From Lachnospiraceae bacterium V9D3004 (lineage in GTDB: Bacteria; Bacillota; Clostridia; Lachnospirales; Lachnospiraceae): DNA of 64,000 bases. The stretch is taken from the NCBI GenBank assembly GCA_000621985.1, contig JHWW01000008.1, forward strand, positions 62,001 through 126,000, written 5' to 3'. The notes beneath the pieces are model-generated. The model did not search any database, was not told the origin of the DNA, and was given only the letters and a program-made list of their open reading frames with translations. The position numbers were made by a program, and so were the translations under genes. Shown piece by piece: positions 39,110 through 57,466 of the stretch. Position 1 is the first letter of the stretch. Each line of letters starts with the position of its first letter.

Positions 39110-39216
39110 AATTAAGATTTTCTTATGAATTCCAAACGTTTCCATGGGGTTTAAAAGTTACAGTTTGAAAAAAGGATATAAAAACAAGAAAAGACAACAT
39201 ACAGGAGGGTGAAAAA

Positions 39217-40126: not shown

Positions 40127-41043
40127 TACTTTAGTCCTCCGTTTCTTATCTGATAGCGAATAAGGTCTTCATAGCCTTTCGCGTTAATGTGAACATCATC
40201 AATTACAGTAGCCTTTGGATATTTCTCAGCATCAAGGAAGTTCTTAATGATTGTGGAACCTCCACCGATAAAGATAAGCTGAGTTGTATCAAGGTTGAAC
40301 TGTAAAGCACGAAGCTGTCCCATAATGTCTTCCACGTAGGTTTTAAGGTCGTTCTGAATGACTGTAAGATACTTAGGTGGAAGATCAACGCTTGAACCGG
40401 TAATCATTACATCCTTAAGTAAGATTTCATCTGCTTCACCGTTAAACTGCTCTCTTAGGTGTTCATTGATTTTGTGCATACATGTAATGGTTCCAAGAGA
40501 AAGGCTCTTGCAGTTACCAGCATCAGCTTTTCTCTCACGGATAGGCATGATATCAATCGTCCAACTTCCAATGTCGATAACAACAGCAAGTCTGCTGAAT
40601 TTGTTGATATAGTTCACGATTCCGGCATAGCCCTGTGGATATACATTTACACTTAAAAGGTTGATGCTATAGGTTACATCTTCATACTTGAAAACAAGTT
40701 TACGATTGCGCTTGTAGTAATCAAGCATAGGTTCTTTTTCGGCTCCCATACGTGTAAGTGGTACACCTACACCAAGATGGATGTCAGCCTGAGTCATGCC
40801 CTGCATCTTAAGTTCTTCTGCGATAGCAGCTTCGGTAAGAACAAGCATGTCCTCGTTATTCATTTTAGATTCCTGAATGGTAATCTTAGGATTGCCAACT
40901 GAATAGAATCCCTCATTTGTCTCAACCACCATGCTTGAAATAGGTGGCTTTGTGGAATGCTTAATCACTCCACTAGAAAATACTTTGTGTGATGTCTTTG
41001 TGTTACCAAATCCAACGTCTACTCCAATAATTAATTCACTCAT
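40126..41043 (-). CDS. parM: ParM/StbA-like actin-family segregation ATPase
   Basis: The 305-aa actin-like protein has phosphate-1 (IIGVDVGFGNTKTS), phosphate-2 (LAVVIDIGSWTIDIM) and adenosine (LIFIGGGSTIIKNF) motifs. ParM filaments push plasmid copies apart when capped by ParR bound to parC. Such genes are typical of plasmids, and here the gene lies on an integrated element, between the TnpC-like and ParR-like genes. The start ATG follows GAGAGGAATTAAAC. No replication gene accompanies it. Confidence 0.85.
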   Translation of the reverse strand: MSELIIGVDVGFGNTKTSHKVFSSGVIKHSTKPPISSMVVETNEGFYSVGNPKITIQESKMNNEDMLVLTEAAIAEELKMQGMTQADIHLGVGVPLTRMGAEKEPMLDYYKRNRKLVFKYEDVTYSINLLSVNVYPQGYAGIVNYINKFSRLAVVIDIGSWTIDIMPIRERKADAGNCKSLSLGTITCMHKINEHLREQFNGEADEILLKDVMITGSSVDLPPKYLTVIQNDLKTYVEDIMGQLRALQFNLDTTQLIFIGGGSTIIKNFLDAEKYPKATVIDDVHINAKGYEDLIRYQIRNGGLK

Positions 41044-41061
41044 GTTTAATTCCTCTCTTTC

Positions 41062-41439
41062 TTATAAATTGTTAACTAGGTCAAATTCTGAAGAGCTTTT
41101 CTTTTTAAGCTCAGCAGTTAATGTTTCAATGTTCTTTTCTAAAGAAATAATCTTTAGCTTTAGTAACTCGTTTTCTCGTCTGGTAGCTTTTAGAAGAGAC
41201 TCTTCTTTTCTGTTAATAAAGACTTTTCCGATTTGTAAGGTGATAGCATTTGTAAGTGCTTCGTGAACATCTTTATTTTTGTAGAAGTAGTCTCTAGAAA
41301 AGCCAGTGCGTCTTACAAGTTCTGCGACAGTGACTTTTTCGCCATCCTCAACCATTTCTGAAATTGTGGTAAGGGAAAGGTTTAGCATAGCTTCAGATCT
41401 GTCGTGATTGCTTTTTACCATGTTTGTGTAGTTTGCCAT
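41062..41439 (-). CDS. TnpC-like (DUF6262-like) transposition accessory protein
   Basis: This 125-aa protein has an N-terminal helix-turn-helix (TVAELVRRTGFSRDYFYKN, about residues 37-55) and a C-terminal coiled coil (KATRRENELLKLKIISLEKN). Size, layout and position directly after the last recombinase match Tn554 TnpC, which influences insertion orientation and efficiency. Its ATG overlaps the stop of the recombinase (TAATG), 9 bp after AAAGGAGG. A TTG three codons earlier sits inside the ribosome-site spacer and is rejected. Confidence 0.75.
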   Translation of the reverse strand: MANYTNMVKSNHDRSEAMLNLSLTTISEMVEDGEKVTVAELVRRTGFSRDYFYKNKDVHEALTNAITLQIGKVFINRKEESLLKATRRENELLKLKIISLEKNIETLTAELKKKSSSEFDLVNNL

Positions 41440-43328
41440 TAGTTCCAACCTCCTTTGTATTTATTAATGGTTTTGTCCTTTTCTTCTCTAAGTTTTTTAG
41501 TGCCTTCAGCAAGGACTTTACTTGTCATTCTGCGGTAGTGCTTAACAGATGAAGTATTGGCATGTCCAAGTAATTTGGCGATAATAGAATCATCAAGTCC
41601 CATATCACAAAGTCTTTTTCCATAAGTCTTTCTGAAAAGATGAGTACTTACAGTAAAGAGTTCTCCGTGGTCATCACGTAAGTCGTTTTCAATAATCATG
41701 CACTGTACTCGGTAATACATTGCTCCATAGGTCATAGGCTTATCAGGATTATTGTCGTCAACAAAGATATAATCTTTTGGACCGTAATGTGATGTTGTGT
41801 AAGCGATGGCGCTTTCAATAAGGTTTTTAATGTCATCGTTAATAGGCTTTCGATAACTTCTGTTAACCTTGGCCTGGTGAATGGTGATGTATAAGTGTCC
41901 GTTTTCATCTTCTCTAATACAATCCGTTCTTAAGGTAAGTGTCTCAGAGATTCTGCAACCTAAGATTTCATGAAGAATCATTAATCGTCCGGTCTGAGAA
42001 TCTAGAGTTTTAAATCCTCTATTTAAAGTTTCAAGCTCGCTATCCGTATAAAATCGAAAGACTGGAATATTGTTCTTTGGAATATCTTCAGGGAAGAATA
42101 ATTTCGTAAGAGAATATTCATCTATTACAAGACCTATGGTGGCTAATATAATCTTTAGAGATATAAGCTCTGAGCGATAGTTCTTGCGTCTAGTATCTTC
42201 CGTATTTAGGTAAATCAAGTAAGATTCAATTACCTCTCGATCAATTTCGGCAAAGGATTCTATTTGTGGGTAATCCCTTGCAAGATATTCGGTGAAAACA
42301 TTAATTACATGTACATCATTTACTGCTGTTCTTGCAGAAACTTCCTTGAGACGAAAGAGAATAGCTTTCTTTGTTTCAGCTTTCATTTTGTCTTGAAGGA
42401 TGTTCTCAAAATTGATGCTGGCAATTGTGTTAACTGGAGGAAGCCTGACGGGAAAATCAAGCCTATCCAATACCCATATATCATCCTCAAAATGGAATAA
42501 TCCGTCATCATAGGTAAAGTAAGAAAGGATGGTCTTTAGGTACTTAAAAAACGGATGTATCTTTGTTTCCGGATGTAACTTGTTTCTCTTATTACTGGTA
42601 ATGGTCAAAGGTATCTGATGCTTCATAGCCCAAATTTTATATTTTCTAATACAGCTATCTTTGTCTAAGTCATATAAAGACTTGATGGATGGATAGGTAT
42701 CACATAAAAAGTCTGCTATATGTCCAAAGCAACGTCTTTCATTGGTAATACTGGTAAATGATAATTCCTTTCCTCTTGCAGTAATGAATTCTCGAAATTC
42801 TTCTATTAAGGAGGACGGTAATACATTAAGGTTGAAGAAGTACTCTGGATGATAATGTGCGGAGGATTGCTTCTTCTTTGGAACGTCTTTGTAGCAGTCA
42901 AGGTCTCTATAGAAGATGAAATTGTCCTTAGGTAAGCAATAAAAATGTGCTTGGCTTATGTAACGAATAGCAGGATGCAAGACAAAACCATCAATCTGCT
43001 TTCTTCTAGGATTAATATTTTTGTCATGGAGAAAGCCAATCATTCTTGCAGTAGCTGATTCAACATCAAGGTCTAACATAGATTCAAGATCCGGATAACA
43101 GGTGGATATGAATTCAGCAAAGAGCATGTAGCTTCTACGGTCTATGTAAAGACTTAAAAAGGTTAGTGTGTTCCCTCGCTCTAAGATAAAAGGAGCTAAC
43201 TGCTCTTGGAGAGAAAGCGTTGGAAGTAGGCTTAAATCAAAGCCATACTCCGGTTTGTAGTAGTCGGATTTTAAGTCTTTTTTCGTTAGGTGCTTATAGC
43301 TGTTAAATTCTTTAAATTTTAGTTCCAT
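41439..43328 (-). CDS. Tyrosine recombinase 3 of the trio (629 aa, TnpB-sized)
   Basis: The C-terminal catalytic domain shows the first Arg in EILGCRISETLTL, HLFRKTYGKRL (His-x-x-Arg), LLGHANTSS and the nucleophile Tyr in VKHYRRM. The long N-terminal ~390 residues contain two similar segments about 145 residues apart (KSDYYKPEYGFDLSLLPTLS and QSSAHYHPEYFFNLNVLPSS), an internal duplication. It would cut and rejoin DNA together with the two upstream recombinases. Its ATG overlaps the end of the previous gene by 10 bp with AAGGAGG upstream. Confidence 0.88.
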   Translation of the reverse strand: MELKFKEFNSYKHLTKKDLKSDYYKPEYGFDLSLLPTLSLQEQLAPFILERGNTLTFLSLYIDRRSYMLFAEFISTCYPDLESMLDLDVESATARMIGFLHDKNINPRRKQIDGFVLHPAIRYISQAHFYCLPKDNFIFYRDLDCYKDVPKKKQSSAHYHPEYFFNLNVLPSSLIEEFREFITARGKELSFTSITNERRCFGHIADFLCDTYPSIKSLYDLDKDSCIRKYKIWAMKHQIPLTITSNKRNKLHPETKIHPFFKYLKTILSYFTYDDGLFHFEDDIWVLDRLDFPVRLPPVNTIASINFENILQDKMKAETKKAILFRLKEVSARTAVNDVHVINVFTEYLARDYPQIESFAEIDREVIESYLIYLNTEDTRRKNYRSELISLKIILATIGLVIDEYSLTKLFFPEDIPKNNIPVFRFYTDSELETLNRGFKTLDSQTGRLMILHEILGCRISETLTLRTDCIREDENGHLYITIHQAKVNRSYRKPINDDIKNLIESAIAYTTSHYGPKDYIFVDDNNPDKPMTYGAMYYRVQCMIIENDLRDDHGELFTVSTHLFRKTYGKRLCDMGLDDSIIAKLLGHANTSSVKHYRRMTSKVLAEGTKKLREEKDKTINKYKGGWN

Positions 43329-45235
43329 TGAATGTCCTCCTTATTTTTGGTAGCGAAGTATTCTTCGTTTAATTTGTCTATCTTATTTGGTAGATGGTCG
43401 ATGTAGTGCTTGGTCATGTCTTCGCTAGAGTGTCCTAAGTATTCTCTGATGCACTGAATATTGGCGCCATCGTTGTAAAGCTCCGTGGCAAGTGTGTGTC
43501 TGTAGCCATGGGGTTTGAACTTATAGGTTTCAGATATTCCATACTTGTCAAAGAGAATATTCATCTGCTTTCTGAAGGTTCCGGAGCGGTAAGGCCCAGT
43601 GGTATGTGGAGCCTTAAAAACATATTCATCTGGAGCGATATTGTTTCGTTTGATGTATTCTGTCATCAGGTCGTAAAGTTCTGTTGGTATAGGGATTCGC
43701 TTTTCTCTTTTGGCTTTGTTCTGATAGATCAAAAACCAAGCGGTTGAGCCATCAAAGAGGTAAGCATTTCCTTTTATTGCGCAGACTTCATTTACTCGAA
43801 TACCTAAACACCAAAGATTTAAAAACATTAATCGAAGCTCCTCAGGGAAGTATCCCAGTACCTCGAAAACTTTCCTTTGATCTTCCTTTGAAACGGAAAT
43901 GTCGTTGTGTTTGTAAACCTCAAATCCTCTGTATTTTTCAAAGTGAAATCTAAGAGGCTGTATACATTCTTTTGCTTCTAAGTAGTAAATGAATTTAGAA
44001 ATCTCACCTAGGTGCGAATTTATAGTTGCAACACGGACATCTTTTCTTTGCAAGTAATTGATGTAGTTTTCAAGGTCTGCCTTTGTAAGCTTAGTAAGGT
44101 AAATGCCATTTTCATCGAAGTAGAAAAGCATTCGCTTTACATTGTTGTAAATCATGTAAATAGATGTAATTGAAAGTCTCTGAGAAAGACCAAGTAGGTA
44201 TTTCATGTAGTCTTTCAGTAAATCAAGGTTTTCTGTTATTTCAACATCATCAAAGTAGAATGCTTCACGTGGATTTGAAGGATTTACTCTTCCTTCTGTA
44301 AAGGAAAAGCGCTCTAAAAACCAAGCGGATGCATCCCAATCAATTGATGGTGCATTTAAAAATGTAAACTTTCGTATTCGCTTAAATGCAGCTCTAGAAC
44401 ATGTGGTGCTCTTTATTGGTAATGTATTTAAGTACTCTATAAATCCTTCTACTTCAGCATTTGTAACCTTTGAAATATCATCAATTTCATGCTCAACACA
44501 GTATTTGTATAAGTACCAAAGCGGAGTAATACGATTCTGAAGAAGCATATGTGTAGTTACTTTGTCTCCGTCTTCAAGGTCGTATTTTAGTAATGCAAAT
44601 ACCTGACGCTTTAAAACCTCAGATACATTGAGCGAAAAATCAAAGAAAAGTGGTTCCTTTACCTGCGTATACTCAAACTGCTTTGCAATTGCGATGTTTG
44701 GATGATATGTAAGGTAAATAAGCTTGTTCTCATAACGAAGTACATGTGGATGTAAATCATTCATTGACTGCTCAATGGCATATAGTTTTGCTCTATCGAT
44801 GATCTTTATATATTCGATTCGCTTTGCTACAAAGGTGTTTGATATGTAGCGTTCAAACTCTACTCTGTCGATTGCATCAATATCAGCTAAGTTGGTGATG
44901 TTTCGTAATGCAAGGAAGAACTCCAGCTTGTTTCGCTTGGCTCTGTCCTTGATGACTTCTTTTAACTCAGGAAAAGACTTTCCTCTTAAGCGGATTATCA
45001 TTTCAAGAGCTGATGCAAAGTGAGCTTTCTGTGTGTCTGTAATTGTTGTGCAAGTCAAAACCATGTTGTAGAAATCAATTGCAGTATCAAGGTCTACGTC
45101 ATCTAAGGAAGTTATTCTTCGGCTTAGTAAGAAGCCCTCAATTAAATCAATACCGGTGGCTTCTTTGTATCCAGTGCTAATGATTTCCTCATGGACGTAA
45201 GAATATTCAATTTGAGCAATTTTCAGTGCGCCCAT
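43319..45235 (-). CDS. Tyrosine recombinase 2 of the trio (638 aa, TnpB-like)
   Basis: The catalytic residues are in LGIRVNEVCAI (Arg), HGYRHTLATELY (His-x-x-Arg), REYLGHSSEDM (His) and TKHYIDHL (Tyr). A SAM-like core-binding domain precedes them (about residues 345-440). The length is close to Tn554 TnpB (about 630 aa). The start ATG is 8 bp from AAAGGAG. It is separated from recombinase 1 by a 143-bp spacer that can form a closed stem structure. Confidence 0.88.
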   Translation of the reverse strand: MGALKIAQIEYSYVHEEIISTGYKEATGIDLIEGFLLSRRITSLDDVDLDTAIDFYNMVLTCTTITDTQKAHFASALEMIIRLRGKSFPELKEVIKDRAKRNKLEFFLALRNITNLADIDAIDRVEFERYISNTFVAKRIEYIKIIDRAKLYAIEQSMNDLHPHVLRYENKLIYLTYHPNIAIAKQFEYTQVKEPLFFDFSLNVSEVLKRQVFALLKYDLEDGDKVTTHMLLQNRITPLWYLYKYCVEHEIDDISKVTNAEVEGFIEYLNTLPIKSTTCSRAAFKRIRKFTFLNAPSIDWDASAWFLERFSFTEGRVNPSNPREAFYFDDVEITENLDLLKDYMKYLLGLSQRLSITSIYMIYNNVKRMLFYFDENGIYLTKLTKADLENYINYLQRKDVRVATINSHLGEISKFIYYLEAKECIQPLRFHFEKYRGFEVYKHNDISVSKEDQRKVFEVLGYFPEELRLMFLNLWCLGIRVNEVCAIKGNAYLFDGSTAWFLIYQNKAKREKRIPIPTELYDLMTEYIKRNNIAPDEYVFKAPHTTGPYRSGTFRKQMNILFDKYGISETYKFKPHGYRHTLATELYNDGANIQCIREYLGHSSEDMTKHYIDHLPNKIDKLNEEYFATKNKEDIQWN

Positions 45236-45264
45236 AAGGCAATCTCCTTTCGTGTAATGTTTTT

Positions 45265-45384
45265 CTTTAGGATGCTTAGCTACTACTCTTGGCTGTAAGA
45301 GAATCTGTCAAGCCGGGGTCAAAATATCAGTAGGTAGGCTTTACAGATGAGCGAAAGCCATATCATAAGTGCGGCATCCTAAAG
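45265..45384 (-). other. Stem-closed structured spacer between recombinases 1 and 2
   Basis: CTTTAGGATGC (45265-45275) and GCATCCTAAAG (45374-45384) are perfect 11-bp complements enclosing 98 nt. Inside lie hairpins CTCTT-GGCTGT-AAGAG (45286-45301) and GGCTTT/AAAGCC (45337-45359). As RNA on the minus strand this makes a three-stem shape starting at the last codons of recombinase 1. It may be an attenuator, an RNA-processing site or a DNA site. No T tract follows the closing stem. Confidence 0.55.
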
Positions 45385-46491
45385 GAAGTCGTTAATGTCG
45401 ACAAACTTCATAGATTCAACGAAGTAGTTGTCGTTTGCTTCGGCAAGCTCGTCATCTTCAACATTTAAGTAGGCTTCTGTAGTAGCAATGTTTTTGTGCC
45501 CTAAAGAGGTTGAAATCTGTGCCATGTCCCAACCAGCTTTTCTTCGCTCGTTAGCAAAGTAGTGTCTAAGCATGTGGGAATGTCCGCTAATACCACATCG
45601 CTTTTCGAGTCTTTCAAATAGGGAATTTACTCCACTTAAGGTAAGGGGCTTTCCCTTGGAAGGACCGCTTTCAGAAACAAATAGGTAATCTGTGTTTTTG
45701 CGAAGCTCGGTCGTATCAGTTAAATAAATCATGAGAAGATCAAAGGTGGAGTTAGAAATCCTTGCTCCACGTTCTTCTGCATATTTCGCATAAGCTCCGT
45801 TTGGGTTTGTTTCTCTGTAGCGAACAAATACTTTCTTATTTTCAAAATCAATGTCTGTCGTATATTTAATTCCTAAGATTTCACCGATTCGAAAACCGGT
45901 TTCTTCTAAAAGAAGAAGTAAAAGTTTGTCTCTTTTGGTTCGAGCAGATGAAATCAAAGTGTGTAAGTCATCTTCTGTAATACTCTTTGCATGATGTTCT
46001 TCTCTGGGAAGATAACCATGAAAAGTCTTTACTGTCTTTGCATACCGAAGTCCAATGGAGTTGGTATATACAAAGGTGGAATCTCTAAGTACCTTAAGTG
46101 CAGTGCCGTTGTCATATTCGAGGATTACGAAATCGTAAAAATCGAAGATGCTTCTTAAGTAGTCGTTTGCTGTATTGTTGTCAGGACATTTGCCTGATGT
46201 AGTGTGTCTACCAGCTCTTATAAAGTGTAGGTAGCTTGTGAAATGCTCCTGCTGTTCAAAAGCGGAAAGCTCTAGCACTTTGTTAACGGTAAGCTTGTTG
46301 TCTTCAAGGTAGTTAAGATACCAGGTAAGTTTTAAAGCTATGTTCTTTAAAGTCTTTTTCTTTCTGCCAAGATTCTTTTTGTATTTCAGATACTTGGTAG
46401 GAAGAGGAACAATTGAGTTGTTGGAAGTGTCGCGGATGATAAAGTACACGATTGTTCCATTAGAAACTGAATCAACGATGTATCTGTTCAA
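45379..46491 (-). CDS. Tyrosine recombinase 1 of the trio (370 aa, TnpA-like)
   Basis: The core-binding domain (about residues 40-160) is followed by the catalytic domain with Arg in ETGFRIGEILGI, SHMLRHYFANERRK (His-x-x-Arg), SLGHKNIATTEAYLNV (His and Tyr nucleophile). The length matches Tn554 TnpA (about 361 aa), and it leads the recombinase operon as TnpA does. The start is TTG, 9 bp after GGGAGG. An ATG is not available near the conserved start. Confidence 0.88.
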   Translation of the reverse strand: MNRYIVDSVSNGTIVYFIIRDTSNNSIVPLPTKYLKYKKNLGRKKKTLKNIALKLTWYLNYLEDNKLTVNKVLELSAFEQQEHFTSYLHFIRAGRHTTSGKCPDNNTANDYLRSIFDFYDFVILEYDNGTALKVLRDSTFVYTNSIGLRYAKTVKTFHGYLPREEHHAKSITEDDLHTLISSARTKRDKLLLLLLEETGFRIGEILGIKYTTDIDFENKKVFVRYRETNPNGAYAKYAEERGARISNSTFDLLMIYLTDTTELRKNTDYLFVSESGPSKGKPLTLSGVNSLFERLEKRCGISGHSHMLRHYFANERRKAGWDMAQISTSLGHKNIATTEAYLNVEDDELAEANDNYFVESMKFVDINDFL

Positions 46492-46765: not shown

Positions 46766-47370
46766 ATGTGTGTCCTCCTTTCTAAAATTTGTATGTAAAC
46801 TCCGGTTGGAGTTGATACCAAAAGTTCTTAAGTGATATCACCTATGGATATCATGGAAGAAGTGGTAAGTGTGGATGCTGTATCAGGTAAGCATTTATAA
46901 GTGACTGCATCCGATTTAGTTCTTATCCCTCTACCTTATATTTGGACCGAGTCAGGACTGATTACTAAAAAACTCGTGTAAATTTTTAAAATAAATTTCA
47001 AAAAATATATGGGCTTATGCCCTTTCATAAAACATATAGGACGGTTCCTATATGAATCTGCAGAAATTTATCCCTCTATATACATTTGGGGGTCTAAATC
47101 GCTCATTACTAAACTGAAGCAAAAGTTTTTATAAAATGATAGTAAAGTTATAATCTAACCATCACTTTATCTATATTATACACAGAAAATACAGTAAAGC
47201 AAGATAAAATTATAATTTTATAATCATAAAATGATAGTTGGAGGATTATAAAATGATAATAGAGTATTGGAATATATTGGAAATACAAGAAAAGTATATT
47301 CAGATTATAATTTTAAAAAGACAAATATATCATTTTATGGTATGATTGGATTTGAATGGAGGATTATGCC
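46766..47370. promoter_or_regulatory. 605-bp divergent regulatory region with four copies of an 11-bp motif
   Basis: No gene is seen between the small excisionase-like gene and the HTH gene. ATAAAATGATA occurs at 47131-47141, 47226-47236 and 47248-47258, and inverted at 47328-47338, the last ending 33 bp before the HTH start. Other structure includes the perfect hairpin CATATAGGA-CGGT-TCCTATATG (47033-47054), GGGC-TTAT-GCCC (47011-47022) and paired GATATC words (46834, 46847). The motif set looks like operators for the adjacent HTH protein. Confidence 0.6.
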
Positions 47371-48105
47371 ATGAGACGAAATGTAGATCCAGATTATGAG
47401 TTTGATAAAGACAGATTTGCAGAAGTACTTAAAGCTGCAATAGGCGACAGATCATATTCCGCCTTTGGAAAAGAAGCAGATATCAGTTTTGGATACATCA
47501 GTAAGTATATAAATAAAAAGTGTGATGTATCACCAACTGTTCAGACGCTTAAGAAGATGGCAAAGGTAGCGAAGGTGACGTATTCAGAGTTGTTAGAAGC
47601 AGCTGGATATGATTCAAATAAATATGATGAAGATGATATTAGTGCGACTATGGTTAATAGCGAGTGGTCACCAATGAATACACTTCTTCCAACGCTTTGT
47701 AGAACAGGTTTTAAGTGGCAGTTTGTAAGTAATGGAACAGCTGGGGCACCGCTTTGTGCAAAAATTGAGGGCGCACCATTCGAAAGCTGGTATTTCATTC
47801 CAGTAACAAAGGATAACGTAACGAAAGAAGATATCCTTGGTATTCTTGGAAGTAAAGAAGCAGAGGTTATCAGTTCGAATTCAAAGGTGACATTCCTCAC
47901 AGCAAACGAGAATGTCTATAACCAGATGAAGGATATAGAGGTAAACCTAATTTCTCTAAGAATATCCGTAGCTCTTGTAAATAAGAATGATGGCTTGATT
48001 GGAGAAGAAAGTTACTTAAAAACTAGTGTAGAGCTTTCTGATAAGGACAGGGTGTACGTATTAACGGACAGGGATACTGTTATGATAACCCCGTTATGGT
48101 TATAA
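47371..48105 (+). CDS. XRE-like HTH regulator with unknown C-terminal domain
   Basis: Counting from the ATG at 47371 (8 bp after GGAGG), residues about 12-75 form a Cro/CI-type helix-turn-helix (SAFGKEADISFGYISKYINK). Residues about 85-244 are an unrecognised alpha/beta domain (KWQFVSNGTAGAPLCAKIEG, ending VMITPLWL). It likely controls the element's divergent operons, including the restriction genes downstream. The four-fold 11-bp motif upstream points to autoregulation. An ATG at 47356 overlaps the ribosome site and is unlikely. Confidence 0.75.
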   Translation: MRRNVDPDYEFDKDRFAEVLKAAIGDRSYSAFGKEADISFGYISKYINKKCDVSPTVQTLKKMAKVAKVTYSELLEAAGYDSNKYDEDDISATMVNSEWSPMNTLLPTLCRTGFKWQFVSNGTAGAPLCAKIEGAPFESWYFIPVTKDNVTKEDILGILGSKEAEVISSNSKVTFLTANENVYNQMKDIEVNLISLRISVALVNKNDGLIGEESYLKTSVELSDKDRVYVLTDRDTVMITPLWL

Positions 48106-48133
48106 GCGCATAAAAAGAAATGTGGAAGTATAC

Positions 48134-48367
48134 ATGATTAAGAAAAAAAGATATCAAATCACAGGTAGATATGAAGAATGTGATTTGTGGACGGATAGTT
48201 TAGATGATGTAAAAAAAGAATGCGTATATCAATACTTAAAGCATAAAAAGAATATTATGTGCTGGGAACATATTGATGGGAAAGTGGCATTTATGGATAT
48301 GAGTGATTCTGTACTAGAGGAAATAAGTGGTACAGAACTGACTAAAGAAAATAATAACAAGAGGTAA
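48134..48367 (+). CDS. Small orphan protein before the restriction operon (77 aa)
   Basis: ATG follows GTGGAAG at 5-6 bp. The product is charged and soluble (IKKKRYQITGRYEECDLWTD), with no recognised motif. It lies between the HTH gene (28 bp) and the first methyltransferase (7 bp), so it is co-transcribed with both. It could be a controller or accessory of the restriction system, which is inference from place only. Confidence 0.5.
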   Translation: MIKKKRYQITGRYEECDLWTDSLDDVKKECVYQYLKHKKNIMCWEHIDGKVAFMDMSDSVLEEISGTELTKENNNKR

Positions 48368-48374
48368 GATAAAA

Positions 48375-49460
48375 ATGAAAGAGACGAAATTCACATGTTT
48401 AGATTTATTTTCAGGAGCTGGTGGATTGTCGAGAGGATTTTATGATGCAGGTTATGATGTTGTGTTGGGAGTAGATTTTGACGAAGCAGCACTTGAAACT
48501 TTTAAGGCAAATCATGGGAATGCAGAGGCAATGAAGCTTGATCTATTTGATCATGCAAATATAGATGTGATTGTAAATTTTTTAGAGGAAAAAGATATTA
48601 AACTTGACGTATTAGTAGGAGGACCACCTTGTCAGGGGTTTTCAATAGCTGGGCCTAGAAACATGGATGATAAAAGAAATTCACTTTATACAGCAATGGT
48701 TAAACTTGCAGATAGAGTAAAGCCACAAGCTGTTGTTTTGGAAAACGTTCCAGGAATGTTGCAGACTAATGGTGGAATTGGTGCCAAAAGAGTCGTAGAA
48801 GATTTTGCAAAAATAGGATATAAGATGATTCCTAAACTGTTATATGCGCCAGATTATGGTTTGCCGCAGATGAGAAAGAGAGTTTTTTTCGTAGGCTTAA
48901 GAGGAAAAGAGAAAGAATTTATATTTCCAGCAGGAACAGTTGATAAGGAGCATTATATAACTTGCGAAGAGGCAATTGGTGACCTACCATCCTTGCAAAC
49001 AGAGAATGGAGAAATAATATATGGAGAAGAGGAGCAAGAATATATAACAGAGCCATTGAATCCTTATCAGAAGAAGATGAGGAAAAATTCGAAAGTAGTA
49101 AGAAACCATATAGGAAGTATTCCGATAGAAAAAACAAAAAAAATGATATCTATGGTTCCGGAAGGAAAAAATTATAAATCGCTTCCAGAAGAGTACAGAG
49201 GTTTATATAAATATCATGAGGCATTAACACGTTATCATAGTAAGAAACCCTCAAATACAATTAATACGGGACACAGATCACATTTTCACTATAAATGGAA
49301 TAGAATACCTACAGTTAGAGAAAGTGCAAGACTTCAAAGTTTTCCGGATGATTTTATTTTTTATGGGAATAAATCACAGCAATATCGTCAGGTTGGAAAT
49401 GCTGTTCCACCTATGCTTGGAGAAGTGGTTGCGAAAGAACTTAAAAAATATCTAGATTAA
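48375..49460 (+). CDS. C5-cytosine DNA methyltransferase, first of two
   Basis: The 361-aa enzyme has the expected motifs in order: I (CLDLFSGAGGLSRGF), IV with catalytic Cys (VGGPPCQGFSIAG), VI (LENVPGML), VIII (MRKRVFFVG), and IX/X (SARLQSFPDDF, QVGNAVPP). It methylates cytosine at C5 in a site set by the region between VIII and IX, which cannot be read from sequence. With the next three genes it forms a restriction-modification operon in which two methyltransferases would protect the two strands of an asymmetric site, as in LlaJI. Confidence 0.93.
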   Translation: MKETKFTCLDLFSGAGGLSRGFYDAGYDVVLGVDFDEAALETFKANHGNAEAMKLDLFDHANIDVIVNFLEEKDIKLDVLVGGPPCQGFSIAGPRNMDDKRNSLYTAMVKLADRVKPQAVVLENVPGMLQTNGGIGAKRVVEDFAKIGYKMIPKLLYAPDYGLPQMRKRVFFVGLRGKEKEFIFPAGTVDKEHYITCEEAIGDLPSLQTENGEIIYGEEEQEYITEPLNPYQKKMRKNSKVVRNHIGSIPIEKTKKMISMVPEGKNYKSLPEEYRGLYKYHEALTRYHSKKPSNTINTGHRSHFHYKWNRIPTVRESARLQSFPDDFIFYGNKSQQYRQVGNAVPPMLGEVVAKELKKYLD

Positions 49461-49475
49461 TTGGAGATGTCTTAA

Positions 49476-50684
49476 ATGATAAAAGTTATTGATTTGTTTG
49501 CTGGCTGTGGTGGTTTGACAGAAGGCTTTATGCAAACTGGAAAATTTAAAGAGGTTGCGGCGGTGGAATGGCTTGTTCCGCAAGTTAATACTCTTAGGAA
49601 TAGATTGAAAACAAAATGGAATGAAAAAGATGCCGATGATAGGGTGATGCATTTCGATATTCAACGAGAAGATGAATTGTTTAAGGGATGGGATGATCCT
49701 GAATTTGGACATGGAAAGGGATTGGATTATTTTGTTAATGAAGAATCGGGAATAGATATGATTATCGGAGGTCCACCTTGTCAAGCGTATTCAGTTGCTG
49801 GACGAGTTCGTGATGAACAAGGAATGAAGGAAGATTATAGAAACTATTTGTTTGAGCATTATCTGAGTGTAGTAAACAGATATAAGCCTAAGTTTTTTAT
49901 CTTTGAAAACGTTCCGGGAATTTTAAGTGCTGCTCCGTCTGGTACTCCAATTACTGAATTGATAAAAGAAGGGTTTGAGAGTATTGGATATGAAATATTA
50001 GATGATTTAAAGCTGGCTCAAGTTAATGCGGCCGATTATGGAGTGCCTCAAAATAGAAATAGGGTTATTATATTGGGCATTAACAAGAATAAAGTTCCGA
50101 AATATAAAAAAGTGCTTGATGATTTTTATAAGGTTATTTTGCCAAAATACAAATGGGATCATGTGGTTACGGTTAGAGAAGCGATAGGTGATTTACCAAA
50201 ATGTAAACCGTACTTTGATGAGGAACATCACGCGAAGCGAAAATCACACGAAACACCGGAGTGCGATATATCAATGCATATTCCGCGATATAGTAATTTG
50301 CGTGATATGGACACTTTTAGAATTCTTGAAGAAGATATTGCTAGTGGTGAACGAAAATATGATAGTAAAGCAATCAGTAAATTGTATGAAGAAAAGGTGG
50401 GTTCAAAATCTCCGATTCATAGGTATCATGTTCTTGAACCTGATGAGCCTAGTACAACAATAATTGCTCATTTATATAAAGATGGAAATAGGTTTATTCA
50501 TTATGATGAGACACAACAGCGCACAATTACACCTAGAGAGGCGGCACGCTTGCAATCGTTTCCAGATGATTTTGAATTCTTAGGAAGTAGAGGAAATGCC
50601 TATCAGATGATAGGAAATGCCGTTCCACCGTTGTTGGCGAATGCAATAGCAAAAGCGATATTAGAATTATGGAAGGAGGCATAG
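49476..50684 (+). CDS. C5-cytosine DNA methyltransferase, second of two
   Basis: The 402-aa enzyme has motifs I (VIDLFAGCGGLTEGF), IV (IGGPPCQAYSVAG), VI (FENVPGIL), VIII (PQNRNRVIILG), IX (EAARLQSFPDDF) and X (MIGNAVPPLLANAIAKAI). Its variable region differs clearly from the first enzyme, consistent with a different strand or site. It starts 15 bp after the first methyltransferase and ends 3 bp before the McrB-like gene. Confidence 0.93.
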   Translation: MIKVIDLFAGCGGLTEGFMQTGKFKEVAAVEWLVPQVNTLRNRLKTKWNEKDADDRVMHFDIQREDELFKGWDDPEFGHGKGLDYFVNEESGIDMIIGGPPCQAYSVAGRVRDEQGMKEDYRNYLFEHYLSVVNRYKPKFFIFENVPGILSAAPSGTPITELIKEGFESIGYEILDDLKLAQVNAADYGVPQNRNRVIILGINKNKVPKYKKVLDDFYKVILPKYKWDHVVTVREAIGDLPKCKPYFDEEHHAKRKSHETPECDISMHIPRYSNLRDMDTFRILEEDIASGERKYDSKAISKLYEEKVGSKSPIHRYHVLEPDEPSTTIIAHLYKDGNRFIHYDETQQRTITPREAARLQSFPDDFEFLGSRGNAYQMIGNAVPPLLANAIAKAILELWKEA

Positions 50685-50687
50685 GTT

Positions 50688-53129
50688 TTGTTTCACTATC
50701 TATTTACAAATGATTTAAGAATTACAAGATTAAATGAAGCATTGGTTGAAGCTGGAACATGTTTTAAAAATGGCACTGTTCCAAGTGCTACTGAGGACAA
50801 AAACGCAAATAACAATATGAACACGTTAGGATTTTATTTTAATTTGACGAGAGATAGCAATTGCGCTATTGCTTCGTCAAACGGAGATATAAGACGTGTT
50901 GTTTTGAATTTTATCAAGAAATTCCAGTTCCCAAACCCTCGTACAAGTGCATCATATAATGATGCTATTAGAGATGGCATAACAATTGCACCAATGAGAT
51001 TAATACTTCAGACTTTATATATGATGGGGATGATGGATCCTGAAAATGCATATTTGTCACGTAGGGAAATTGCAGATTATATATTTTTTAATGAGGAAAT
51101 AGCTAAAACCATAACTCCAGATACTGCAAGTTTGGCAAGAAAAATATTGGATTCTAGAGTTGATGATGTAATTTATGATATTGAAGATGATTTGAAACTG
51201 AATGCAAAAGGCTGTTATTGGAAGCAGTGCAAACGTCAGGTTAGAGAAATGGTTAAGACACTGGTGTGGGCAGGATGTGTAGTTGAGAATGAAGATTCGA
51301 CAATAAGAATACGTCATAATGATCTTACTATGGAGAACAAAGCGGATCTGTTTGAAATCATCACATATTCGGGATTCTGGAAAACAGATGATGACAGTGA
51401 TTTTAATAAGATAAAGCAATCGTATCAAAAGTATATGGATATTTCAAAAGAGGATGTATTGGAACAAGGGAAGGCATCAAAAGCAGATGTCTTATCGCCT
51501 GAATGGTTTAGGGAAAAAGCAAAGTTATTAGAAGGATTCGACGAAAAAGTAAAACCATTATATACAGACTTTAGTGAACGATATAGCCCGGAGAAGTTAG
51601 CAAAACTTGATGGTTTAGATGTATTGTCTACAATTTTTTTGAATCCATATAATAAAAAAAGTATGTGTTATGAGATGGAATATGACAAAGATAATAGACA
51701 TTTCTTTGGAAGTATAAAGTCAGGTACCGCATATAAGTATGGCTTGCATTACAGTAAAGCAAATAAATCTTGGGCAACAGGAACGCATGTGAATCCAGAA
51801 TTTCTAAGTGAAGCTGATGCAATTGAGTTAGGCGAAGAAATTAGAGATTATTTGGTGAAAGGAGCGGCCGTTCTAAAAAAATATGGGGAGTTAAAAAGTT
51901 CGCAAGACTTTGATAATGCATATGAAGAATTGGTAAATGTTACAGCTGGTTATATTAATAAGATATGGTTTTTAAAATATTATCATATGATGTTTCCAGA
52001 TTTGTTTCCTCCAATTTATAGTTCGGATGCACAGAACACTACATTAAAGGTTATTGGAAAAACTGCTAAAGATAATAATCCATTTTCTAGACTAAGCGAA
52101 ATGGAAGAGTTTGTTAATGAGTGTGGCATTTCAAATGCTTTATTTAATCATATTATATGGTTTTATGCAGTGAGTGAAAATACGGATAATGAGGAGGAAA
52201 AGCCAGAAATGAAGAATTGTCTAAATATAATCAGGGAGCCAAGAGACAATAAATTACATCCATTAAACTTCATAGTATATGGCGCGCCAGGGACAGGAAA
52301 AACGTATTCGATGGCAGAATATGCATTATCAATAGTTGACAATGTGACTATTGAAACATTTAGGGCAGATCATAAAAGAAGAGTGGACGTTATAAAGCGA
52401 TACAACGAGCTGATAAAAGAAGGACAAGTTGTCTTTACTACTTTCCATCAGAACTATGGTTATGAAGAATTCATACAAGGATTACGTCCAGATAAAGAAA
52501 GCGATAGTTTATCTTTCACAGTGGTGGATGGCGTATTTAAAACAATTGCAGATACTGCATTAAATGATATGTCTGGGAAAAACTATGTGATTATTATTGA
52601 TGAGATAAATCGTGCAAATATTTCAAAGGTATTTGGCGAATTAATTACGTTGATAGAAGAAGATAAGAGATGGGGCGAGATTAATCAAACATGCGCGACA
52701 TTACAGTCCGGGGATGTTTTTGCGGTTCCAAATAATTTGTATATCGTTGGAACAATGAATTCTGCGGATAAATCGATTTCTCTAATTGATGCGGCATTAC
52801 GTCGCCGATTCGATTTTATCGAACAGAAACCAGACGCTTCATTGGTTGGAGATGCATTGCTAAAATCTTTCTTGTTGAATCTTAATAATATTCTTGTTGA
52901 GGAGTTGGATAGTACAGACTTATTGGTGGGACATTCATATTTCATTAATAAAAACGAGCAAGATTTGTGTGGAATATTGAATAATAATATAATCCCATTG
53001 CTGTACGAGTATTTTTACGATAATCGTAAAAAGGTTGCAAGTGTTTTGGTGAAGGCAATAAAAGAATCAGGAGCAAAAGTAGAACTAGTAGATGAAAAAG
53101 TCGGAAGACTAAAGGTAAAGGATGAGTGA
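50688..53129 (+). CDS. McrB-like AAA+ restriction subunit (R1.LlaJI type)
   Basis: The 813-aa protein starts at TTG, 9 bp after AAGGAGG. The C-terminal AAA+ motor has Walker A VYGAPGTGKTYS (about residues 528-539), Walker B VIIIDEINRANISKVFGE (about 635-652) and the McrB-type sensor/arginine region NSADKSISLIDAALRRRFDF. The ~500 N-terminal residues are unlike the McrB methyl-reader and probably bind the target site, as in R1.LlaJI. The protein should hydrolyse nucleotide and translocate on DNA to activate the McrC-like nuclease. Its end overlaps the next gene by 8 bp. Confidence 0.85.
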   Translation: MFHYLFTNDLRITRLNEALVEAGTCFKNGTVPSATEDKNANNNMNTLGFYFNLTRDSNCAIASSNGDIRRVVLNFIKKFQFPNPRTSASYNDAIRDGITIAPMRLILQTLYMMGMMDPENAYLSRREIADYIFFNEEIAKTITPDTASLARKILDSRVDDVIYDIEDDLKLNAKGCYWKQCKRQVREMVKTLVWAGCVVENEDSTIRIRHNDLTMENKADLFEIITYSGFWKTDDDSDFNKIKQSYQKYMDISKEDVLEQGKASKADVLSPEWFREKAKLLEGFDEKVKPLYTDFSERYSPEKLAKLDGLDVLSTIFLNPYNKKSMCYEMEYDKDNRHFFGSIKSGTAYKYGLHYSKANKSWATGTHVNPEFLSEADAIELGEEIRDYLVKGAAVLKKYGELKSSQDFDNAYEELVNVTAGYINKIWFLKYYHMMFPDLFPPIYSSDAQNTTLKVIGKTAKDNNPFSRLSEMEEFVNECGISNALFNHIIWFYAVSENTDNEEEKPEMKNCLNIIREPRDNKLHPLNFIVYGAPGTGKTYSMAEYALSIVDNVTIETFRADHKRRVDVIKRYNELIKEGQVVFTTFHQNYGYEEFIQGLRPDKESDSLSFTVVDGVFKTIADTALNDMSGKNYVIIIDEINRANISKVFGELITLIEEDKRWGEINQTCATLQSGDVFAVPNNLYIVGTMNSADKSISLIDAALRRRFDFIEQKPDASLVGDALLKSFLLNLNNILVEELDSTDLLVGHSYFINKNEQDLCGILNNNIIPLLYEYFYDNRKKVASVLVKAIKESGAKVELVDEKVGRLKVKDE

Positions 53130-54630
53130 TATGGTTCTTGACAGGTATGAGTATAGCAAAATTTCAAATGCAAAATTGCCTGTTTCTTGGCAAAGTCAGT
53201 CATCATTAGAAGAACTGTCTGATTTTCTACAGCAGAATTGGGAGCAACGATCGGTTTTTTATGAAGACGGCGAAGTAAAAAGTCAGCAACAGTTCATAGA
53301 TTTTCTTGGGGCTGGCGGTATACGTACGAAAAAGTATATAGGAACTATCGTGTTTAAGGGCGAGCAACTTAATATATATCCTAGAGTGTTTAGTACGGAA
53401 AAAGACGATCATGATACGGACGAACTAACACAAAAGCATATGATGCTTAATTTAGTTAAGTGGATAGAATACTGTAATAAACTAAATTACCCGTTTATTA
53501 ACATTTCTAGTGAATTGGATGATTCAGAGAATTTAAAGGAACTTTTTATTACTTTATATATTGGTTACGTACGAACTGCTATAGAAAGAGGACTTTATTA
53601 TCGCTATGTTGATGAAACGGAAGATTGTTCAAGTATAAAAGGAAAGTTTGATATAAAGGATTATCTGATATCAAAAATTCCGGAGGGAAGGGCAGATAAG
53701 TTTAGCTGTACGTATTCTAAGTTTGAATTTGATAATAAAGTCAATCAAATTATTAAGTGTACGTGTAAATTACTTATTAACATGACGACAAAAAGAAACC
53801 AAAAGGTATTGAGAACAATCTTAACACGTTTAAATGAGGTTTCTGATGTTAAATGTACACCAAATGATTGTAATGGTATTCGCTTGAGTAAGATGCATAG
53901 GCATTATGACATTATTATTAGCATGAGCAAAATGTTTCTGCTTAATAAGGTGACAAATTATTCAGTGGACTCTAATGAGTCATTTTGCTTTTTGTTTCCT
54001 ACAGATATTTTATTTGAAGGATTTATTGGTGGCTTTATAAAAGAGGTTTTAGCACAATACGGAGGCAAGGTAACGCTTCAGGAAAGTAGGATGAGTCTTG
54101 TAGAAAAGATTATCTATAAAGGTAAAACAAGTGGAGCGGCTTTCAAAATGAGGCATGATATTCTTGCGGAATATGCAGATAGGATTTTTGTTTTAGACAC
54201 AAAATACAAGGAAATGTCAAGATTTGAAGATAACCCAGAGTATGAGGAAACTATCAATAAGGAAGCGCATCAAAGTGATCTGTACCAAGTGCTGGAATAT
54301 GCAAGAAAACGTGATATTGAAGACGTTTATCTATTATATCCGATGTATAGATATGAAGAAAAGGAAATGGAATTTCCTATAGCTGTCAGTGAAAGTCCTT
54401 CCGGTGATATAAATGTTCACTTTATAAGATTACCTTTTATATATGAGGAAAATCAGGAAGAAAAAACAAACAGTCAATTGACAGAAGTAATAGAAAGCAT
54501 ATTTGAAGTGGATTACATGGTTAATCTTAATAATGGAGAAAGTGTTTTGGTTCAAAGCGAGTCTGCAAATAGTGAACAAAACAAACGTGTTTATGGTTCG
54601 ATGACAAAGAAAATGTATGGGGAAGAATAA
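53122..54630 (+). CDS. McrC-like restriction endonuclease subunit (R2.LlaJI type)
   Basis: The 502-aa McrC family protein has an N-terminal beta-rich McrB-contact region (TKKYIGTIVFKGEQLNIYPR). A PD-(D/E)xK nuclease core lies near residues 335-365 (HDILAEYADRIFVLDTKYKE, with D, D and K in the expected pattern). It cuts DNA when driven by the McrB-like partner. Its start lies within the end of that gene (ATGAGTGAT), showing coupled translation. The last ~60 residues are acidic and may be variable. A bidirectional terminator follows immediately. Confidence 0.87.
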   Translation: MSDMVLDRYEYSKISNAKLPVSWQSQSSLEELSDFLQQNWEQRSVFYEDGEVKSQQQFIDFLGAGGIRTKKYIGTIVFKGEQLNIYPRVFSTEKDDHDTDELTQKHMMLNLVKWIEYCNKLNYPFINISSELDDSENLKELFITLYIGYVRTAIERGLYYRYVDETEDCSSIKGKFDIKDYLISKIPEGRADKFSCTYSKFEFDNKVNQIIKCTCKLLINMTTKRNQKVLRTILTRLNEVSDVKCTPNDCNGIRLSKMHRHYDIIISMSKMFLLNKVTNYSVDSNESFCFLFPTDILFEGFIGGFIKEVLAQYGGKVTLQESRMSLVEKIIYKGKTSGAAFKMRHDILAEYADRIFVLDTKYKEMSRFEDNPEYEETINKEAHQSDLYQVLEYARKRDIEDVYLLYPMYRYEEKEMEFPIAVSESPSGDINVHFIRLPFIYEENQEEKTNSQLTEVIESIFEVDYMVNLNNGESVLVQSESANSEQNKRVYGSMTKKMYGEE

Positions 54631-54631
54631 G

Positions 54632-54669
54632 AAAAAATGGCCTGGGCGATTAAGCCCAAGCCATTTTTT
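54632..54669. terminator. Bidirectional terminator between McrC and relaxase genes
   Basis: An A-rich arm (54632-54647) pairs with a T-ending arm (54654-54669) through TGGC.TGGGC/GCCCA.GCCA with one mismatch, flanked by A and T runs. It serves the convergent mcrC-like and mobA-like genes. Confidence 0.88.
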
Positions 54670-56264
54670 TATCTTCTGCGACCGCGTCTTACAATGTTGT
54701 GGTCAATCGGCTGACAGCCATGAGATTCTTCCAAGGATTTCATTGTGGAAGGTACATTACTAAGCATCTTATCCGCGGTGGCAAGTGCGGTTGTGAAGCT
54801 GTCTGCTACTTCTTCTTTTGTTAACTCAAATTCATTTGAAGTCAAAGCTCTTAGCATATCGACTTCTTTTTCTGGGCGGAAAGTGTTCCGCTTAGACTGA
54901 GCCAATGCAAGAATCATAGGGGAAGTTGACTTGATTAACTCGGAAAGTTCATCAAGCAGTCTATATTCGTCCTGATATTCAAGAGTTATCTGCTTATCAA
55001 TCCACGAATCCGTTCCCTGAGATGGAAGGTACTGAGTTCTAAGTGTGTGATCGATTGCGGCAATTCTAGTGCGGATATCTTCAATATGCTCTGCCACCCT
55101 ATCTGCTTCTGATTCAAGAGTATTGCTCTTTAGTCCACTTCCGAAACCGAAAGACCTAAGCTGTTCAAGGCAGTGACTAAAGGTTTCGCGGAGCTTTTTA
55201 CCCCAGTCAACGATTCCTCTAGTTCGTTTCGCTGTTTCATCAACTCTTCGGTCAAGTCTCTCAACTGCCCATTCTCCGTAAGAGCCGTTTCCAGGCTTTC
55301 CTCCAACTGTGCTATTCTTTTCTGCTGACGTTCTATGGTCTGCATCTGGGTTAGAGTATTCTTCTGTAGCTTCTCGTACTGTTTTTTCCAATACTTTGCG
55401 TTCTCGTTTTCCTTCGTCTGTGATAGCAGTCCGCTCTGCCTGAACTGTTCTGTTTCTGTTAAAAGCATCTTCTAAAACCTCCTTTGATAATTCGATACTA
55501 TATGTTTCTGCTAAGTTCTTATCTCTAAAAGATTTGCCGGATTCGATATGTGTAAAGGTGATGTACTTCCTATTATCTTCCCACTTTACTTCATATCCGT
55601 ACGTTTCCATCTGTGAGATAAATTCTTCTTTGCTTGGTGCAGTAGTCATACAAGCAAGTACTGCACTGATGCAATCTGTTTTTAAACTCTTCTTTCCATC
55701 AGTAGTCATAAGACGATAATCTCTCTTATCGTAGGAACGGATAGTTCCTTCTTCGATATCAGATCCATCAAAGTGTTTTCCTTTGACACAGACAGATAAG
55801 CCATGAGCTTCACAGATTTCATCATTAATCTTTTTCATCTGTTTAAAGTCTGATTTGGACAGATGAACTTTACTTCCGTCAATGCTGTTTACGGAATTTA
55901 CCACTACATGGCAGTGACAATGATCGGAGTCGATGTGGCTCGCAAGAGCACAAGTAAATCCGGGGAAACATCGTTCTGCCCATTCTTTACCAACAAGTAA
56001 AGTCTCTTCTGGAGTTATCTTTTCATCTGGATGAAAGGATATGACGAAGTGCTTATACTGTCGTCCTCCAGTCTTATTCCAAAATTTTTTTATTTCTTTG
56101 AACTGCTGATACACAAGATCGGCAGTAACCTTTTCTTCAAAATAATCTCCGGTTACAAGCTTAAGTTCTTCAGTGACTTTCTTATCTTTGTAGATATAGT
56201 CAAGGGTGTTGCTTAATGCTGCTGAAGATTTAGCTCTCGTATTAATAGCTTTAACGACTGACAT
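54669..56264 (-). CDS. MOBP-type relaxase (MobA/VirD2-like)
   Basis: The 531-aa relaxase domain occupies residues 1-250. It has an N-terminal region with candidate catalytic Tyr in NTLDYIYKDK and the metal-binding histidine cluster ASHIDSDHCHCHVVVNSVN (about 106-124). It nicks oriT and leads the strand into a recipient through a helper's secretion system. The C-terminal half is charged and helical. ATG is 9 bp after AAAGGAGG and overlaps the end of mobC by 52 bp. A second gene is nested in another frame within this one (55130-55468). Confidence 0.9.
   Translation of the reverse strand: MSVVKAINTRAKSSAALSNTLDYIYKDKKVTEELKLVTGDYFEEKVTADLVYQQFKEIKKFWNKTGGRQYKHFVISFHPDEKITPEETLLVGKEWAERCFPGFTCALASHIDSDHCHCHVVVNSVNSIDGSKVHLSKSDFKQMKKINDEICEAHGLSVCVKGKHFDGSDIEEGTIRSYDKRDYRLMTTDGKKSLKTDCISAVLACMTTAPSKEEFISQMETYGYEVKWEDNRKYITFTHIESGKSFRDKNLAETYSIELSKEVLEDAFNRNRTVQAERTAITDEGKRERKVLEKTVREATEEYSNPDADHRTSAEKNSTVGGKPGNGSYGEWAVERLDRRVDETAKRTRGIVDWGKKLRETFSHCLEQLRSFGFGSGLKSNTLESEADRVAEHIEDIRTRIAAIDHTLRTQYLPSQGTDSWIDKQITLEYQDEYRLLDELSELIKSTSPMILALAQSKRNTFRPEKEVDMLRALTSNEFELTKEEVADSFTTALATADKMLSNVPSTMKSLEESHGCQPIDHNIVRRGRRR
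55130..55468 (-). CDS. Coiled-coil protein nested out of frame inside the relaxase gene (112 aa)
   Basis: The ATG (55466-55468) is preceded 9 bp upstream by a perfect AAAGGAGG (55478-55485) that lies within relaxase coding DNA. The product is almost entirely heptad-like (KYWKKQYEKLQKNTLTQMQT, then LEESLETALTENGQLRDLTE). The layout recalls ColE1-type plasmids, where mbeB and mbeD lie inside mbeA and encode small helical relaxosome helpers. The strong ribosome site and natural coiled-coil pattern argue for a real gene rather than a shadow frame. Confidence 0.7.
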   Translation of the reverse strand: MLLTETEQFRQSGLLSQTKENENAKYWKKQYEKLQKNTLTQMQTIERQQKRIAQLEESLETALTENGQLRDLTEELMKQRNELEESLTGVKSSAKPLVTALNSLGLSVSEVD

Positions 56265-56617
56265 AGTGGCAATACCTCCTTTCCGGTTTCATGTACATCG
56301 TTTGCAAGTTCCTTGAGTTCATTTTCATTGGCTGGCTGATTATATGTATTTGCAATCTTAGCCATCTGGTTACAATTGATGCCAATACCTTTGAACTGAT
56401 TTAAAAGTTCCGTAAGCTCGGACAAGAGCTTCGGGATATCTTTTAAAGCTTCTGGATTGGCAAGCGTTGCTCCTAGTGTTGCGTTGATAAGGTAGGTCTG
56501 TTTATTCAGACCGGATTCTGTTACAAGTTTGGTTAACTTTCGATACTCTTCATCGTTCATATAGAAGTTAACCTGATGATTTCTTGTTCTGTTCTTTTTT
56601 GCAGTTTTTGTTCCCAT
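56213..56617 (-). CDS. mobC: MobC-like relaxosome accessory protein
   Basis: The 134-aa protein has a ribbon-helix-helix start (RNHQVNFYMNDEEYRKLTKL) and the MobC signature region (LNQFKGIGINCNQMAKIANT). It binds near oriT and helps the relaxase open the strands. The ATG at 56617 is chosen since AAAGGAG sits at the right distance. An ATG three codons upstream touches the ribosome site. It overlaps the relaxase start by 52 bp, so both are one operon. Confidence 0.85.
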   Translation of the reverse strand: MGTKTAKKNRTRNHQVNFYMNDEEYRKLTKLVTESGLNKQTYLINATLGATLANPEALKDIPKLLSELTELLNQFKGIGINCNQMAKIANTYNQPANENELKELANDVHETGKEVLPLCQSLKLLIRELNLQQH

Positions 56618-57355
56618 GTGTATCATCTCCTTTCAAAATTGTGCGGAACAAATCGATTACAAATGATTGGATTGATAGGATGGAAACATTCCATTTGTGA
56701 GCGACCGGGTTATCCAAAAGGGGCGGAGCTCCTTTGGCGGGATGCAAGGGCAGAGCCCTTAATTCTCTTAGTAGGGAATGGGATAAAACCGATGGGACAG
56801 TTTTCTGACTGTTATTAGGTCGGTTTTTCGTCCATTACCGGATAAGAGGATGTGCTCTAGGGGACGGGGGAATGAAAGTCCCCAGTGGGTTCCAAGGGCT
56901 AGCCCTGGCAAGCTACCGAAGTGAAACGAGGGTACCACGCGACTAGGAACGATAGTGACTAGTCAAAGTGGGTAGCTTGCCTATTATTCTGAAAATATAT
57001 ACAGGGCTGCAGATAATCTGCTGTGTAAATGCCCTGTGAGTAACAAATCAGAATAATGGTGGATTGGTAGGCCGCTGTATTCCTTGGATAAGTGGAATTG
57101 GCACACGGATGTGTAGTCAAATTCCGCTGATAATTTCATTAAGCGGACTACATGTCGCAATCTCCAGTTGGATGAATATGATTATTAGAAAGACCAATGT
57201 TGCTGATATCAGTTAGATATCTTTAGGTGATATCAGTTAGATATCAGCAGAGTTTCTTTGGCTTGAACAGAGTTCTTAAATAGATATTTGATATACACTG
57301 TAGAATCTGTGCGAGTGCTTTTCTTTCTTTACTTCCCTGGGGGACAGGGTAATTA
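56618..57355. other. 738-bp non-coding right end: probable oriT, dense in hairpins
   Basis: No convincing gene is seen. Perfect or near-perfect stems follow one another: AAGGGC/GCCCTT (about 56747-56761), AAAACCGA/TCGGTTTT with inner ACAGT/ACTGT (about 56786-56827), GGGGAC/GTCCCC (about 56859-56883), AGGGCTAGCCCT (56895-56906), GGCAAGCTACC/GGTAGCTTGCC (56907-56917, 56971-56981) enclosing GACTAG/CTAGTC, ATTATTCTGA/TCAGAATAAT (56983-57057) enclosing ACAGGGC/GCCCTGT and GCAGAT/ATCTGC, and TCCGCT/AGCGGA near 57122-57145. Lying directly upstream of mobC, it probably contains oriT. The nested folds could also be a structured RNA. Confidence 0.55.
57204..57245. repeat. Two 18-bp direct repeats near the right end
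   Basis: TGATATCAGTTAGATATC occurs at 57204-57221 and 57228-57245. Each unit is itself symmetric (GATATC on both sides of AGTTA). Placed about 110 bp from the right junction, they may be recombinase arm sites or a parC-like site for the ParR-like protein. Confidence 0.6.
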
Positions 57356-57363
57356 ATTTTGGT
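57356..57363. repeat. Right attachment core (attR octamer)
   Basis: ATTTTGGT, matching the left copy at 39292-39299. Recombination between the two would restore the pilin gene exactly. Confidence 0.8.
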
Positions 57364-57466
57364 TCTTATTGCTTTGGTACTGATCTTTAAAGATAAGATC
57401 ACAGGTATCGTGGATAATGCCATGAACAGTATTGATAAAAACAGCGAGGAAATCATAGGTGATTAG
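57356..57466 (+). pseudogene. 3' part of the flp (type IVb pilin) gene, interrupted
   Basis: From the octamer the frame reads ILVLIALVLIFKDKITGIVD and runs to TAG at 57464, which is the rest of a Flp1-type pilin helix and tail. It joins in frame with the piece at 39217. An in-frame TAA lies just before the octamer in element DNA, so it is not reached by readthrough. A TTG at 57359 behind an element-derived GGGGGACAGGG could allow weak translation. Its stop overlaps the next gene's GTG start (GTGATTAG). Confidence 0.9.

Follow-up and report, generated by a model that had tools for sequence, protein, structure and literature searches.

The locus described here raises the question whether a 112-codon open reading frame (ORF) lying within a relaxase gene of Lachnospiraceae bacterium V9D3004 is a gene in its own right and, if so, which role its product may have in the transfer of the surrounding element. 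The window, to which the positions in Table 1 refer, is a stretch of 64,000 nucleotides from contig JHWW01000008.1. A preliminary description of it had pointed to a perfect Shine-Dalgarno sequence 9 bp ahead of the frame, which was confirmed when coordinates and spacing were re-read. The nested ORF starts with ATG, is closed by a stop codon after 112 codons and locates entirely to the relaxase ORF, whereby its start coincides with relaxase codon 265 and its ribosome site is formed by the K and E codons (AAG GAG) of the relaxase motif SKE[VGA].

Table 1. Features of the mobilisation module and of the surrounding element, in positions of the window.
Feature	Position	Strand	Basis or remark
Nested gene, 112-aa soluble coiled-coil protein	55130..55468	-	+1 frame of relaxase; MobB/MbeD-like by position
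Shine-Dalgarno AAAGGAGG of nested gene	55478..55485	-	9 nt spacing to ATG
Relaxase, MOBP, HUH motif HIDSDHCHCHVVVN, 531 aa	54669..56264	-	Pfam PF03432 (Relaxase), E=1.1e-31
mobC-like ribbon-helix-helix accessory gene	56213..56626	-	NikA-like 1.4e-11, MobC_2 7.5e-11; overlaps relaxase start by 52 nt
Relaxase Shine-Dalgarno (AAAGGAGG), inside mobC 3' end	56275..56282	-	read from the sequence
Candidate oriT, perfect 11-bp inverted repeat GGCAAGCTACC/GGTAGCTTGCC, conserved intergenic stretch	56907..56981		putative assignment
Conserved block, mob module to right end of element	54632..57390		elements of differing cargo share 93-97% DNA identity here
Three tyrosine recombinases (45379-46491, 43319-45235, 41439-43328)	41439..46491	-	presumably move the element
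DUF6262 (TnpC-like) small protein, after recombinase trio	41062..41448	-	PF19776, 8e-32

The openness of the nested frame is modest evidence and does not suffice by itself, as a second frame open over the same length was obtained in 185 of 10,000 synonymous-codon shuffles of the relaxase (1.9%). The content of helix-forming residues is ordinary as well, being reached by 22.7% of shuffles. The arrangement of the hydrophobic residues is another matter: their power at period 3.5 amounts to 9.4, against means of 1.0 for residue shuffles and 1.15 for codon shuffles, and this value was reached in none of 2000 residue shuffles and none of 3000 codon shuffles. The coiled coil is hence not a by-product of relaxase coding. 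AlphaFold2, run with eight family members, predicted one helix spanning residues 2-103 with a mean pLDDT of 91, and together with the heptad power this bears out the continuous coiled coil proposed earlier. The accompanying statement that chance overlap rarely gives both a ribosome site and a heptad pattern stood in part, the heptad pattern being far above chance and the openness being a weak argument when taken alone.

Comparison of homologous relaxases, which the preliminary description had proposed as a check, revealed coding constraint in the second frame. Within a gap-free alignment of seven relaxases of 91-100% identity (window, L022-L027), synonymous divergence of the relaxase (pS) was 0.25 before the overlap, 0.038 within and 0.28 after it, a strong reduction of the kind anticipated. 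Read in the coil frame, dN/dS was 0.25 within the overlap as compared to 3.1 and 1.5 outside, with the third frame, serving as control, giving 2.8 within the overlap, and the relaxase's own dN/dS being about 1 there; within the overlap, the coil frame is under tighter constraint than the relaxase frame. Third-position variation was found at 9/113 positions in the overlap versus 166/418 outside (Fisher p=4e-12), and within the overlap the window clade varies most at coil codon position 3 (20/113 versus 17/226, p=0.005). The loss of synonymous change repeats in independent groups, decreasing in the overlap from 0.32 to 0.08 in L037-L041 and from 0.58 to 0.19 in L042/L044; it is weaker in L048/L049 (0.32 to 0.27). 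Inside the overlap of L037-L041 no clear codon phase of the variation was found.

These data bear on three explanations which do without an independently translated coil protein. That relaxase amino-acid and codon make-up alone opened the second frame and made it helix-like, as the shuffles for openness and helix content alone would allow, is already refuted by the roughly sevenfold drop of synonymous divergence, the constrained coil frame and the heptad shuffles, and the start and ribosome site retained across deep divergence likewise speak against it. An RNA structure or a DNA site, e.g., a second oriT-like or regulatory site, could lower synonymous change in a manner that would look similar at first, so that no protein would have to be assumed; however, the constraint coincides with the 112-codon ORF, and as variation in the overlap of the window clade follows the coil codon phase, the constraint is not frame-blind. 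With a coil-frame dN/dS of 0.25 in addition, this explanation was considered barely credible. Only marginally better placed, and still very improbable, is a programmed frameshift, by which the frame would provide an alternative relaxase C-terminus and yield a fused relaxase-coil product. The +1 frame and the start directly behind the catalytic domain would suit such a fusion, but relatives keep a canonical ribosome site at proper distance from an ATG (GTG in pCD-METRO), and in the window clade the nested frame is open from relaxase codon 264 with the ATG at codon 265, hence a single open codon upstream leaves no room for a slippage site. Judged by this comparative sequence evidence, which settles the point, the 112-codon frame is a genuine overlapping protein-coding gene.

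The same arrangement extends well beyond the closest relatives. Among relaxases of at least about 34% identity with the region on the contig (L002-L004, L022-L028, L036-L051), all copies covering the region possess a +1 ORF at relaxase codon 264/265, or at the equivalent codon in truncated copies, preceded by the ribosome site AAGGAG(G) or AAGGGG; second frame and ribosome site are thus both kept down to this level of divergence. Here, the K and E codons at the ribosome site are AAG and GAG (GGG in L042/L044), compared to a usage of 44% for AAG and 29% for GAG in these genes. The neighbourhood of mobC, relaxase and nested coil is conserved. A class-wide search extended the pattern to about ten further Clostridia relaxases, whose +1 ORFs begin at relaxase codon 249-260 behind a ribosome site: in those of 445-485 aa (L068, L070, L071, L073, L077, L082-L086) the ORFs are fully nested and 127-176 aa long, in L067 the ORF overruns the relaxase stop, and all of them, L067 included, possess a C-terminal membrane segment by hydropathy. 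The nested gene is absent from relaxases of about 312-353 aa which have no C-terminal extension, from the pTRACA73 relaxase and from the Fusobacterium relaxase L063, where a gene is found directly downstream instead. In a copy from Eubacterium ruminantium (L028, 3009-4170) the relaxase is 5'-truncated and carries two in-frame stops in the overlap with the coil frame intact, which is suggestive and possibly reflects recent decay alone.

Searches with the coil protein itself returned no match in plasmids or phages and no relatives among viral contigs; beyond the close clade, weak coiled-coil matches only were obtained, and the same holds true for Pfam, NCBIfam and PHROGs, whose weak coil matches were not used as evidence. 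In most relaxases of 363-464 aa the overlapping ORF continues beyond the relaxase stop into terminal membrane segments, with L042 (205 aa, no membrane segment) as an exception, and several of these ORFs match Pfam DUF6040 (PF19506) with E-values down to 6e-31, the start of the DUF6040 model falling close to the relaxase stop or past it. No membrane segment is present in the window form or in L036 (129 aa), and the window protein gave no DUF6040 match over the Pfam gathering score. Its length of 112 aa is fixed in all near relatives and dN/dS after the stop is 1.5, both of which speak against a sequencing error or hidden continuation. A profile of the coil compared with the membrane-bearing relatives yielded an hhalign probability of 3.9%, i.e., no significant similarity; since sequence similarity is undetectable, the link to these relatives rests on position, frame and type of fold. 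The shared N-terminal letters MNLKD/MSMKD/MLLTE were not taken to indicate homology, the relaxase frame itself being conserved there.

Annotation had been expected to drop such a gene, and the records agree with this. In C. difficile pCD-METRO the DUF6040 gene is annotated from 1994 onwards; the open frame, together with its ribosome site, extends upstream as far as relaxase codon 264. At a staphylococcal DUF334 locus, annotation places the gene start at 1717, whereas the match to the pC221 protein begins at 1501. DUF6040 and DUF334 genes are thus annotated with trimmed 5' ends (L061, 1661-2695; L122, 1501-2172), their likely starts lying inside the relaxase. The overlapping ORF of a Waltera plasmid is missing from its gene table, which is incomplete by its own description. 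Two DUF6040 genes were also observed to lie behind, and overlap, MOBQ / MobA-MobL relaxases (L123, 417-2325; L120, 964-3370), and therefore the layout would have arisen in, or moved between, more than one relaxase family. In the open-access literature no paper was found that names DUF6040, nor one that mentions DUF334 together with mobilisation.

The element which carries the module was characterised as well. The stretch 39773-46491 comprises the recombinase trio, the DUF6262 gene, a gene for an actin-like ParM (Alp7A type) and a small ParR-like gene; it is 96-99% identical between elements with differing cargo and, by its gene content, is a Tn554-like core with an added partition pair. The cargo (47356-54630) consists of two C5-cytosine methylases and McrB/McrC-like genes, and as relatives show only distant methylase matches, at other places, the defence cargo appears to be exchanged. 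A Flp (Tad) pilin-like gene is split by the element at membrane-helix codons (39215-39300 and 57340-57464; EIILILV... on the left, LIALVLIFKDKITGIV... on the right). Similar pilin C-terminal codons border the right end in all six relatives (L022-L027) and in the distant L036, and the left ends of L125 and L126 match; judged by these junctions, the element family is site-specific and breaks a pilin gene. For mobC, the second ATG (GAAAGGAGATGATACACATG; 56617-56626) is the probable start, because the first one sits directly on the ribosome site. No conjugation machinery was seen in the element. A coupling protein and another relaxase are encoded in a separate region of the genome (contig C6), which could serve as helper.

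With respect to function, we favour, at a probability of roughly 0.78, the reading that the nested gene is genuine, would be translated from the mobC-relaxase mRNA via its own internal ribosome site and encodes a soluble, probably oligomeric coiled-coil accessory protein of mobilisation. The coil would bind the relaxase or the relaxosome, as suggested by pC221 MobB and ColE1 MbeB/MbeD, and would aid relaxosome assembly or present the relaxosome to the coupling protein of a helper conjugative element; relaxosome assembly or docking, with co-translation of coil and relaxase, is its most likely role. As the membrane segment of its relatives is absent, the site of action of the coil may be the cytoplasm, or it may rely on a partner, and nesting would couple its supply to that of the relaxase. 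An unlikely, though the best surviving, alternative is that the gene is real and its product has another role, namely that of an exclusion, regulatory or inhibitory protein which, e.g., titrates the relaxase or blocks the entry of like elements. This would be in line with the annotation of ColE1 MbeD (77 aa, nested, +1, no membrane segment) as "mobilization/exclusion protein" and with the lack of the membrane segment typical of MobB-like relatives; against it stands that, within the mobC-relaxase operon, the gene occupies the place of MobB/MbeB directly behind the catalytic domain, and no exclusion partner gene was seen.

We lean slightly towards a more general picture, in which a nested coil at a fixed relaxase point (behind the catalytic domain, +1, own ribosome site) would be the usual layout of long Clostridia MOBP relaxases, largely missed or 5'-trimmed in annotation, with the 112-aa form of the window as a distinct branch which lost, or never had, the anchor and docks the relaxosome otherwise. 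The choice of conjugation machineries open to a mobilisable element depends in part on accessory transfer proteins. Were nested genes general in Clostridia, a whole class of transfer helpers would be missing from databases, and DUF6040 and DUF334 would represent C-terminal membrane portions of proteins with an N-terminal portion encoded inside the relaxase gene. The locus furthermore provides clear-cut examples of gene overlap where constraint is tighter on the nested frame than on its host, and since the start can be abolished by one silent base change, the function of the coil is open to direct testing.

Known systems place the gene as follows. DUF6040 proteins of Clostridia plasmids and elements (e.g., pCD-METRO) share with it the coil N-terminus inside the relaxase, at the same codon and with the same ribosome site, but continue past the relaxase stop into a long C-terminal membrane domain which the window protein does not have. 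The nested ORFs of the 445-485-aa Clostridia MOBP relaxases are likewise fully nested in the +1 frame behind their own ribosome site, and differ by their C-terminal membrane segment and by the lack of obvious (unscored) sequence similarity. In S. aureus pC221 the overlapping DUF334 gene (PF03904), known as mobB alongside mobA and mobC, starts at relaxase codon 233 in the +1 frame behind AAAGGGG. It is reportedly needed, by genetic evidence, for mobilisation. The window gene resembles it in position (MOBP relaxase, overlapping mobC upstream in a mobC-mobA operon, start just behind the catalytic domain, +1 frame), in having a ribosome site and in the charged helical N-terminal part. pC221 MobB comprises 223 aa and extends past the relaxase stop with membrane segments and DUF334, whereas the window protein sequence contains no C-terminal membrane segment and no Pfam match to DUF334, and blastp between both gave E=16. 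As the title of Parker & Meyer 2007 states, the type IV transport signals of the R1162 relaxase require the small protein MobB. In RSF1010/R1162, mobB is nested in mobA, and the host relaxase belongs to another family (MOBQ).

ColE1, named in the preliminary description, proved an apt comparison: mbeB and mbeD are both fully nested in the MOBP relaxase MbeA in the same +1 frame, behind the sites GAAAGGAG/GAAGGAG, with mbeB starting at about codon 229 of mbeA. ColE1 possesses two nested genes versus one in the window, and MbeB contains a membrane segment; neither MbeB nor MbeD was found among the best 25 Pfam/NCBIfam matches listed for the window protein, up to E=1. The suggested Firmicute counterpart agrees in position and frame, though as such it is not new, pC221 mobB already being one. 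What is new is a form contained wholly in the relaxase gene and devoid of a membrane segment, together with the evidence for trimming or omission of such genes by annotation. In architecture, the window protein is matched most closely by ColE1 MbeD, a 77-aa coil encoded in the same +1 frame and likewise lacking a membrane segment.
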